Assembly: GCF_004358095.2 (NCBI RefSeq)
Contig: NZ_SMZJ02000006.1
Coordinates: 1-64,000, forward strand
DNA: 64,000 bases
Direction: 5' to 3'
Source of the DNA: Seonamhaeicola sediminis
Lineage (GTDB): Bacteria; Bacteroidota; Bacteroidia; Flavobacteriales; Flavobacteriaceae
Shown: one piece after another, positions 15,466 to 17,442 of the stretch
Numbering within the stretch: position 1 is the first letter of the stretch
Layout: every line of letters begins with the position of its first letter
Made by a program: the position numbers and the translations under genes
Notes under the pieces: model-generated
Seen by the model: only the letters and a program-made list of their open reading frames with translations
What the model was told of the DNA's origin: nothing
Databases searched by the model: none

Positions 15466-15497
15466 TTTGCTTTTCACGTAAAAACGTGATATATTTG
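15466..15497 (+). promoter_or_regulatory. Promoter of the satD-DUF3307 operon with palindrome in spacer
   Basis: TTTG (15466-15469), 20-base spacer, TATATTTG (15490-15497): a full match to the Bacteroidota consensus. The spacer carries an inverted repeat CACGT-AAAA-ACGTG (15475-15488). The predicted transcription start, about 15502-15504, falls at the beginning of the iteron array. Confidence 0.8.
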
Positions 15498-15500
15498 AAT

Positions 15501-15584
15501 ATTCCTTAAAAAAGGAATAATTTAAAATATTCCTTTAAAAGGGAATTTTAAAGTTTATGCTTTTAATACGGAATATCAAAAAAG
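15501..15584 (+). repeat. Three 28-bp iterons with ATTCC-N8-GGAAT dyads, candidate operator
   Basis: Units begin at 15501, 15529 and 15557, exactly 28 bases apart. The first two contain ATTCC at offset 0 and GGAAT at offset 13 (15501/15514 and 15529/15542). The third keeps GGAAT at 15570 but has ATGCT in place of ATTCC. Each full unit is an inverted repeat (unit 1: ATTCCTT-AAAA-AAGGAAT). They lie between the predicted start site and the satD ATG, so they could be repressor sites or hairpins in the leader RNA. Confidence 0.75.
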
Positions 15585-15590
15585 TATATC

Positions 15591-16199
15591 ATGACAAGTG
15601 TTATAACAGGTGATATTATTAAATCTAGACAAGCAAATCCTGAAACATGGATTACTATTCTTAAAAATGCTTTATCCTTTCTTAGTTCAGATAACTCGAG
15701 ATGGGAAATATATCGTGGTGACAGCTTTCAAATAGAAATAACCGATATTTCTGAAAGTTTTTTAGCCGCAGTATATTTAAAAGCATGTATTAAAACCATA
15801 AAAGGATTGGATGTAAGACTTGCTATAGGCATTGGAAACAAAGCCTACCAAGGAAAAGATGTAACCGAATCTAATGGTGAAGCTTTTGTTTTCTCTGGTG
15901 AAACCCTAGAATCTCTAAAAAAGGAAAAACAAAACCTTAGAGTTAAAACCAGTAATACTAAATTTAACGTCGAACTTAACCTCTACTTTAAACTTGCATT
16001 GGTAACTATGGATAATTGGACTGTTAATTCTGCAGAAGTTATTAAGTTAAGTATTGAAAATCCTAATGCTTTACAACAAGAATTGGCACAACTAATTGGC
16101 ACCAAACAAGATGCCATTAGTAAACGTCAAAAACGAGCAGGATTAGAACATATATTAGAATTAAACCAAATGTACCAACTCAAAATAACATCTTTATGA
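15591..16199 (+). CDS. SatD-family protein: nucleotidyl-cyclase-like domain plus C-terminal HTH
   Basis: A 202-residue SatD-family protein (named from a Streptococcus acid-tolerance locus; biochemical function not established). Seen: ITGDIIKSR with Asp8, EIYRGDSFQIEI with Asp44, LDVRLAIGIG at 73-82 and GEAFVFSGE at 96-104. In order and spacing these resemble the class III nucleotidyl-cyclase landmarks: first metal Asp, GD hairpin with second metal Asp, the RxGIxxG strand, and the helix that carries the transition-state Asn and Arg. That Asn/Arg pair is not evident here, so activity is uncertain. Residues about 163-184 (QELAQLIGTKQDAISKRQKR) form a helix-turn-helix. The stop overlaps the next start by 4 bases. 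The upstream iterons suggest autoregulation. Confidence 0.8.
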   Translation: MTSVITGDIIKSRQANPETWITILKNALSFLSSDNSRWEIYRGDSFQIEITDISESFLAAVYLKACIKTIKGLDVRLAIGIGNKAYQGKDVTESNGEAFVFSGETLESLKKEKQNLRVKTSNTKFNVELNLYFKLALVTMDNWTVNSAEVIKLSIENPNALQQELAQLIGTKQDAISKRQKRAGLEHILELNQMYQLKITSL

Positions 16200-16900
16200 T
16201 GCTTTTCTTAAAACTATTCTTAGCCCATATTATTGGTGATTTCTTTTTACAACCAACTAAGTGGGTGAAAGAAAATGAAAAGAAAAAGCTAAAATCGCCA
16301 AAACTCTACATTCATGTAGTCATCCATATAATTCTGGTAACACTTATTCTTTGGGATAAATCGTTATGGCCAATATTTGCAGTCATAGGTATTACACATC
16401 TTGCTATTGATGCCATGAAGCTTTCTTTTCAGAAGAAGAAAAGTAAAAGACTTTGGTTCTTTATAGACCAGTTATCTCATATTGTAGTAATTGCTATCTG
16501 CTATTATATCTTTTCAGAAAACACATCAACAATAAAAATTGAGTTCACTGAAAATTCTATTTTACTTGTAACCTGCTTATTGTTTTTAACAATTCCGGTA
16601 TCTATAATTATGAAAACTATTTTTTTAAAGTGGAATATTTCAGAACTCACTAAAAATAATGAGTCCCTAGAGGATGCTGGTAAATATATTGGTATTTTAG
16701 AGCGCATTTTAGTGTTCATTTTTATTGTATTGGGCCATTGGGAGGCGGTTGGATTTTTAATTACTGCTAAGTCGGTTTTTCGCTTTGGAGATCTAAGAGA
16801 ATCGAAAGACAGACAACTTACTGAATACATTTTAATAGGTACATTAATAAGCTTTGGCATAGCCATTATAACAGGAATACTTTATAATTTATTAGTTTAA
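16196..16900 (+). CDS. DUF3307 polytopic membrane protein
   Basis: A 234-residue inner-membrane protein with about six hydrophobic segments, DUF3307 family, function unknown. Conserved polar residues sit in or near membrane helices: HIIGDFFLQ (residues 11-19), THLAID (about 68-73) and FIDQLSH (about 88-94), then ILERILVFIFIVLGHWEAVG. The HxxGD, HxxID and DQxxH patterns look like a metal site or active site inside the membrane; this is inference. The start ATG overlaps the satD stop (ATGATG at 16196), so the two proteins are translationally coupled and probably made in fixed ratio. The SatD-DUF3307 pairing is found in other phyla as well, which argues for a shared function. Confidence 0.85.
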   Translation: MMLFLKLFLAHIIGDFFLQPTKWVKENEKKKLKSPKLYIHVVIHIILVTLILWDKSLWPIFAVIGITHLAIDAMKLSFQKKKSKRLWFFIDQLSHIVVIAICYYIFSENTSTIKIEFTENSILLVTCLLFLTIPVSIIMKTIFLKWNISELTKNNESLEDAGKYIGILERILVFIFIVLGHWEAVGFLITAKSVFRFGDLRESKDRQLTEYILIGTLISFGIAIITGILYNLLV

Positions 16901-16905
16901 GAAAT

Positions 16906-17442
16906 ATGTTCAAAAGTGCAATAGAATCACAGGTTACTATAACGGAATTAATGTTACCAGCTCATTCTAACTTTAGTGGTAAAATTCACGGAGGTTATAT
17001 TTTAAATTTAATGGACCAAATAGCCTTTGCTTGTGCATCAAAACACTCTAGACATTATTGTGTTACAGCTTCGGTAAATCGTGTAGATTTTCTTAACCCC
17101 ATTGATGTTGGTGAATTAGTTACCCTTAAAGCTTCAGTAAATTATACTGGTAGAACTTCTATGGTTATAGGTGTAAGAGTAGAGGCCGAAAATATTCAGA
17201 CAGGTGAAAAAAAACATTGTAATTCATCTTATTTCACTATGGTGGCCAAGGATGAAAATGGCAATAATGCTCCCGTTCCAGGATTAATTTTAGATAATGA
17301 ACAGAGCGTACGTCGTTTTTCAAGAAGCATTGCCAGACAAGAACAAGCAAAACATAGAACTACAAAATTTAAATCTACTGAATTTAAAGTTGCTGACCAC
17401 TTAGAGGCTTTAAAACCTCATAATGTGAAAATCGTATTATAA
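16906..17442 (+). CDS. Acyl-CoA thioesterase, hotdog fold
   Basis: A 178-residue YciA/acyl-CoA hydrolase type thioesterase. The hotdog domain is clear: LMLPAHSNFSGKIHGGYIL, then LMDQIAFACASKHS, with the HGG segment preceding the catalytic Asp of LMDQ at about residues 36-39, then the strands TASVNRVDFLNPIDVGELVT and GRTSMVIGVRVEAE. It hydrolyses acyl-CoA to free acid and CoA; chain preference cannot be read from sequence. It follows the DUF3307 gene by 5 bases and may be the third gene of the satD operon, although a functional link is not obvious. Confidence 0.92.
   Translation: MFKSAIESQVTITELMLPAHSNFSGKIHGGYILNLMDQIAFACASKHSRHYCVTASVNRVDFLNPIDVGELVTLKASVNYTGRTSMVIGVRVEAENIQTGEKKHCNSSYFTMVAKDENGNNAPVPGLILDNEQSVRRFSRSIARQEQAKHRTTKFKSTEFKVADHLEALKPHNVKIVL

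Follow-up and report, generated by a model that had tools for sequence, protein, structure and literature searches.

The promoter region of satD in Seonamhaeicola sediminis carries an array of alternately inverted half-sites, and within the family the bases of these half-sites co-vary with the recognition helix of the SatD protein encoded downstream; this is the main new result of our analysis of a 64,000-nt stretch of DNA (the window; positions 1 to 64,000 of contig NZ_SMZJ02000006.1). SatD very probably binds this array of predicted sites ahead of satD and controls the promoter of that gene, a prediction that we base on the way in which half-site bases track residues 178, 175 and 174 of the recognition helix. 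Together with the DUF3307 protein encoded by the following gene, it probably forms a self-contained, autoregulated two-gene module that would respond to a nucleotide. The fold family of SatD, the conservation of its aspartates, the gene pairing, the half-site array and the co-variation between array and recognition helix constitute the computed basis of this reading. The array falls within the range quoted by the original prediction, which presented SatD as a candidate nucleotidyl-cyclase-like regulator, and was absent from it.

The two genes of the locus (Table 1) overlap by 4 bases (ATGA, 16196-16199), as had been stated before, and the motifs ITGDII with Asp8, RGDSFQIEI with Asp44, VRLAIGIG and GEAFVFSGE are all found where the original prediction had placed them. 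SatD comprises a palm/cyclase-fold domain (approximately aa 1-120), a helix (123-140), a helix-turn-helix (HTH) region (145-183) and a C-terminal helix (185-201). Its match to Pfam family SatD (PF16264) spans nearly the whole length and reaches 23.4 bits vs a gathering cut-off of 29; the cut-off was exceeded by the relatives L053 (42.0 bits), L059 (31.9) and L087 (107.6), and 43 of 68 SatD family members matched at E <= 0.1. The partner scored 101.8 bits against DUF3307 (PF11750), above the gathering score of 23. The Pfam name SatD presumably derives from the sat operon of Streptococcus mutans. A published passage on that operon names SatCDE, Ffh and YlxM (PMC12077213). Six bases past the DUF3307 gene starts a putative acyl-CoA thioesterase-like gene (16906-17442, named by eye), which may lie in one transcript with it; its neighbour cluster has six members, all from close relatives.

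Table 1. Features of the satD-DUF3307 locus (positions are those of the window).
Feature	Position	Strand	Description
Candidate -33 element TTTG	15466-15469	+	Read from sequence
Operator-like array	15472-15575	.	Eight 6-bp half-sites, exactly 14 bp apart, strands alternating
Half-site TTTCAC	starts 15472	+	By eye
Half-site TATCAC	starts 15486	-	
Candidate Bacteroidota -7 box TATATTTG	15490-15497	+	Overlaps a half-site; read from sequence
Half-site TATTCC	starts 15500	+	Without mismatch
Half-site TATTCC	starts 15514	-	Without mismatch
Half-site TATTCC	starts 15528	+	Without mismatch
Half-site AATTCC	starts 15542	-	
Half-site TATGCT	starts 15556	+	
Half-site TATTCC	starts 15570	-	Without mismatch
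satD	15591-16199	+	202 aa; ORF, Pfam, alignment and structure model
Asp8 codon	15612-15614	+	Candidate first metal ligand, motif TGDIIxS; conservation and profile alignment
Asp44 codon	15720-15722	+	Candidate second metal ligand, RGDxFQ hairpin; conservation and profile/hhalign alignment
Recognition helix, aa 173-183	16107-16139	+	Structure model and co-variation
DUF3307 putative membrane protein gene	16196-16900	+	234 aa; Pfam PF11750

In its general form, the array consists of TATNNN half-sites, inverted alternately every 14 bp, and lies over the candidate promoter. The -7 element of Bacteroidota promoters has the consensus TAnnTTTG, and 42 of 87 satD loci have a match to it in the 200 nt before the gene (a raw count). 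A period of 28/29 bp was the strongest lag in 55 of the 87 satD upstream regions vs 1 of 143 control regions. As controls we took the upstream regions of other genes in these loci, after removal of 25 that overlap satD upstream DNA; before this removal the figure was 18 of 168, since satD upstream DNA is shared by some neighbours. When half-sites were assigned with a custom fitting script, 67 of 94 loci had an array score higher than any of 188 Markov-resampled sequences, and 76 passed the 95th percentile of these (among the loci from the plasmid collection 4 of 7, with L094, L095 and L098 below). No array above the 95th percentile was found in the other 18 of the 94 loci, to which family f17 contributes 10 of its 11 members. 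This family (L074-L076, L078-L085) keeps the aspartates and DUF3307, and only L080 passes the 95th percentile, weakly. Two haloarchaeal plasmid copies (L136, L139), which stood outside the resampling test, possess arrays of GTTCGCC palindromes with a period of 29.

Searching the S. sediminis genome for three consecutive half-sites with up to 2 mismatches, we found the satD promoter as the sole place; up to 3 mismatches yielded 12 places, 5 of them at satD, and 5 for the reversed control. The single TATTCC dyad with up to 1 mismatch occurred 20 times per strand (2 at satD) vs 8 for the reversed control, and since single dyads are commoner than in the control, SatD may have further targets. Dyads elsewhere in the genome include C1:15154 and C47:210295.

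The half-sites differ between lineages (TATTCC, TATTAC, TATCGG, TATCTG, TATAAG, TATCAC and others), and so does residue 178 of the protein: Lys accompanies TATTCC, Arg TATTAC, Glu or Asp TATC(G/T)G, and Gln TATAAG. Among 184 variable columns (44 proteins), base 4 of the half-site was best tracked by 178, base 5 by 175 and base 6 by 174. With N-domain identity regressed out, K178, A175 and D174 ranked 1, 2 and 3 of 185 columns at an 80% identity filter (44 proteins) and 1, 3 and 5 of 187 at a 60% filter (27 proteins), where H187, located outside the recognition helix, came second. The partial Mantel test for column 178 gave 1 of 5001 at both identity filters. For these comparisons, array scores below 12.5, redundant loci and six loci without a TAT/TGT register (L010, L056, L065, L067, L087, L088) were dropped, leaving 58 loci and then 44 or 27, and the register of L033 was set manually. 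No strict one-to-one code emerges, because L004 and L005 share an identical recognition helix and yet differ in their half-sites, TATCAC in L005 and a mixture with TATTCC/TATGCC in L004. Mixed types (TATCAC with TATTCC/TATGCC) within one promoter were seen in the window, L002 and L004; such arrays look as though specificity were shifting.

This co-variation also bears on whether the palindromes might form RNA hairpins in the satD leader instead of DNA operators. The leader of the window does fold better than shuffled sequences (z -2.82, 1 of 200 shuffles equal). However, the array begins upstream of the candidate -7 box, the 14-bp spacing is held in both orientations, and half-site bases that follow a recognition helix are not predicted by a hairpin, so that this explanation appears very improbable.

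The HTH that would read these sites had been proposed for residues 163-184; helices at 162-169 and 173-183 in the structure model and matches to Sigma70_r4 in 34 of 68 SatD family members (E <= 0.1) support it. The view of SatD as a regulator has become stronger as well, because the array co-varies with the recognition helix. We propose that the C-terminal HTH reads the alternating inverted half-sites, spaced 14 bp apart, over the promoter of its own operon. Lined up on these sites, a SatD oligomer would keep RNA polymerase out by promoter occlusion, repression being suggested because the array overlaps the candidate promoter. Plasmid autorepressors of the KorA/TrfB type are HTH proteins that bind palindromes at promoters. 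SatD resembles them in its HTH region, where L098 and L063 gave weak profile matches (E 0.032 and E 0.047), and computationally it shows what characterizes an HTH autorepressor, an array at its own promoter that is tracked by the recognition helix. It differs from them by the addition of a palm domain and of long alternating arrays.

On the structure model and sequence profiles, the N-terminal domain of SatD belongs to the nucleotidyl-cyclase/GGDEF palm superfamily, with a palm fold and two aspartates at metal-ligand positions, where metal binding is predicted. The AlphaFold model, computed on an 11-sequence alignment (pLDDT 81.6, pTM 0.83), has the order strand-helix-hairpin-helix-strand followed by the C-terminal HTH; residues 87-104 were poorly modelled (pLDDT below 50). 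In a Foldseek search against PDB, the best 50 of 815 matches (E <= 10) were all GGDEF domains, class III cyclases, GTP cyclohydrolase III, Cas10-type Csm/Cmr complexes or mCpol, with the mCpol OptS among these 50. Each match was weak singly (best E 4.3e-3, none <= 0.001; TM by query 0.21-0.42), and those to Cas10 complexes had an rmsd of 13-17 A. A profile of 48 SatD N-domains, searched against 177,635 PDB sequences, placed cyclases on ranks 1-6 (three proteins, E 0.0034-0.014), namely four Ma1120 sequences, DosC and one further cyclase, followed by a gap to E 0.33; these alignments pair Asp8 and Asp44 of SatD with the aspartates of the DI and GD motifs in Ma1120. When the full-length profile was used, HTH proteins came first and cyclases followed at E 0.007-0.06. 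Comparison by hhalign gave E 0.0015 (probability 16%) for class III cyclases and E 2.8e-4 (probability 41%) for GGDEF, vs E 0.2 for an unrelated control and E 0.046 for cyclase and GGDEF against each other. The Pfam cyclase and GGDEF models did not match window SatD, and a search with the single protein L063, cyclase-like by eye, found no cyclase. The start motif of L098, TGDLVGSTELS, and that of some other relatives is close to the class III consensus.

Among 87 SatD proteins (L041, which is the window locus again, was omitted), Asp8 is present in 85 and Asp44 in 86, and both are near-invariant down to 21-30% identity. The remaining conserved columns are Ser12 (85), Arg42 (81), Gly43 (76), Gln47 (86), Arg76 (84), Gly80 (82), Gly82 (86), Gly96 (82), Ser102 (83) and Gly103 (84). 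The original prediction had named two outcomes that would refute it, an unrelated predicted fold and a lack of conservation of Asp8 and Asp44; both were examined, and neither arose. One deviating protein, L086, has Val instead of Asp8 in the frame used; this may be the effect of a frameshift, because TGDIIASS is readable by eye in another frame just upstream. In L058 (genome G017) both aspartates are replaced (K and N), there is no adjoining DUF3307 gene and none in the genome by PF11750, and the array is missing. Though a single event, this points to a joint decay of palm site, partner and operator, and the protein is possibly a remnant.

Class III cyclases such as Ma1120 and GGDEF proteins such as DosC share with SatD the palm fold, the second aspartate in a GD hairpin and an RxxIGxG-like strand, and the first aspartate sits in a DIxxS motif as in cyclases (TGDIIxS in SatD, DIEES in Ma1120). 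SatD differs from both in its fused HTH. The GG[DE]EF hairpin is absent from the 87 proteins, which have RGDxFQ in its place. The Asn/Arg transition-state pair of true cyclases, already described as not evident, is indeed not conserved: by alignment and eye, neither an Asn nor an Arg is kept just after Ser102-Gly103, and the nearest residue is Lys110 (70 of 87); the hhalign alignment ends before this helix. The palm domain, with both metal-binding aspartates kept, most likely holds a metal-bound nucleotide, which would be either the ligand that sets DNA binding or a substrate.

If it were a substrate, SatD could be an active synthase of a cyclic or linear nucleotide, with DUF3307 as a membrane effector gated by the product, in analogy to Pycsar, CBASS and Panoptes, and with the HTH only setting expression. 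We consider this possible, if somewhat doubtful. The near-invariant metal aspartates and the presence of OptS among the 50 Foldseek matches fit such a synthase, and the missing Asn/Arg pair argues against it. In Panoptes, the palm of OptS uses Asp6 and Asp57, and OptE, the effector, combines two TM segments with an S-2TM-beta domain (PMC12657218). The same paper describes a small two-Asp palm protein followed by a membrane protein (OptS mCpol and OptE), a synthase-effector layout like that of SatD-DUF3307; SatD, in contrast, adds an HTH and an operator array, and no S-2TM-beta match was seen for DUF3307. Pycsar likewise combines a cyclase-fold protein (PycC) with a membrane partner (PycTM), but the PycC models did not match SatD. 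None of the CBASS, Pycsar and Panoptes synthase or effector models, nor any other PADLOC model, matched window SatD or DUF3307 at E <= 0.1, which also speaks against a synthase. SatD of the E. coli plasmid matched the PADLOC models CasR, CARF, Csa3 and mad1 with its C-terminal part only.

According to the preferred reading of a nucleotide-responsive autoregulator, the output of the module would be the amount or activity of the co-translated DUF3307 membrane protein. Its label as a membrane protein is predicted from a hydrophobic, helical make-up. The N-terminal PF11750 half contains the conserved residues H11, D15, Q19, H40, H68, D72, K75, D91, Q92 and H95, the second half G166, E169, R170, G186, K192, R196, E210 and Y211. 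In an alignment of 83 loci (without the broken or cut L043 and L070 and without L058 and L067, which have no DUF3307), H11, D15, Q19, H40, H68, D72, D91, Q92 and H95 were kept in 80 proteins (gaps counted as misses), and G166, E169, R170, G186, K192 and R196 in all 83. By sequence, this conservation looks like two functional sites; the "membrane enzyme" of the original prediction is at present a candidate role. The structure model (pLDDT 65.7, pTM 0.50) did not lead to a fold, its best Foldseek match (E 0.75) not being meaningful, and there was no sequence match in PDB. A relationship to the YdjM/DUF457 membrane hydrolases was rejected (hhalign probability 0.7%, E 0.078). PHROG 2470 matched DUF3307 at 4.4e-15; the PHROG scan with SatD gave no match, and neither did phage records for DUF3307 of the window or of the E. 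coli plasmid. In genome G239 (L043), DUF3307 is broken by a TAA.

SatD was present in 76 of 296 sampled genomes of the phylum, about a quarter, with a patchy distribution within genus g2, which also fits the synthase reading. Seventy-two of these 76 genomes hold PF11750 DUF3307 as well, and in three of the remaining four our own profile detects a DUF3307-like neighbour (L086-L088). A DUF3307-like gene lies within approximately 200 bases downstream in 85 of 87 satD loci (including the broken L043, the cut L070 and the short L086). Conversely, DUF3307 was found in 75 of 292 genomes, 70 of these with SatD; one of the five without detected SatD carries a diverged SatD.

The plasmid collection contained SatD in 14 records, with DUF3307 behind it in all 8 loci examined, and DUF3307 in 19 records, where SatD stood in front in four out of four further loci, two of them haloarchaeal. 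These records belong to Pseudomonadota, Segatella, Fusobacterium (probably a chromosome, because it is 2.1 Mb long) and two haloarchaea, L136 and L139, in which the genes also overlap by 4 bases. Some small E. coli and Klebsiella plasmids carry little else: one of 3,770 bp (L093, NC_019077.1; E. coli/Klebsiella) encodes, apart from SatD-DUF3307, only MobA, a protein of the Rop family and a small hypothetical protein, and in another of 4,424 bp (L140, NZ_LR890364.1) the pair is the main cargo, again accompanied by a Rop-family protein. For the E. coli plasmid pair, no match was found in the E. coli genome collection.

The plasmid context relates to both the synthase reading and the possibility of a toxin-antitoxin-like pair. 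Scanning 8 neighbour proteins of 4 plasmid loci, we found that in a Sphingomonas insulae plasmid (L098, 1-6561) the pair adjoins a PycTM/E2/PycC Pycsar system and is flanked on its other side, at a distance of a few genes, by a ThsB-like TIR gene, and that an Enterobacter plasmid carries it near a GajB-like gene. These two loci, together with the small plasmids, favour a synthase and point to conflict biology, whereas the chromosomal neighbours do not. Among the latter no clear defence signal was seen in raw counts, with few matches (PADLOC E <= 1e-20, 92 of 145 representatives): none of the 25 of 37 families listed had more than 2 members, most were GajB/UvrD-helicase models, and the Pfam families, 25 of 110 listed, were mainly metabolic or household, which weighs against a synthase in a defence system. 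The 259 neighbour ORFs formed 159 clusters, the largest with 8 members, and neighbours were conserved among close relatives only.

In a toxin-antitoxin-like pair, DUF3307 would harm the membrane and SatD would be the neutralising, autoregulating partner. In line with it are the gene overlap, the leading position of the DNA-binding partner, the repeated operator-like sites at the promoter, carriage on small plasmids and the weak likeness of the HTH region to KorA. Yet DUF3307 is large and has many near-invariant polar residues, five of the 75 DUF3307 genomes lack a detected SatD (one has the diverged copy), and an antitoxin has no need of a cyclase active site; we regard such a pair as quite improbable.

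In full-text literature (most subscription papers were outside the scope), mentions of DUF3307 (a phage gene table) and of the "SatD family" describe neither the pair nor the fold nor the operator. The listed matches for "satd" with DUF3307 concern satellite DNA, and those for SatC/SatD/SatE are, by title, not on this gene. Although SatD and DUF3307 are so far mere family names, about one in four of the genomes sampled in the phylum has SatD, nearly always paired, and the arrangement of a cyclase-fold, probably DNA-binding protein with a putative membrane protein occurs in bacteria and archaea. It is conceivable, although we judge it unlikely, that SatD is a DNA-bound nucleotide synthase, which polymerises on the array at its own promoter and whose palm-made signal frees the promoter and gates DUF3307. 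If so, bacteria and archaea would share a conflict or stress system that unites synthase, repressor and effector control in a single two-gene unit. With the operators and key residues predicted here, both halves of SatD come within reach of small experiments. A cyclase-fold protein that would read DNA by a code visible in the sequence may combine, in a single polypeptide, the chemistry of nucleotides with the control of an operon.
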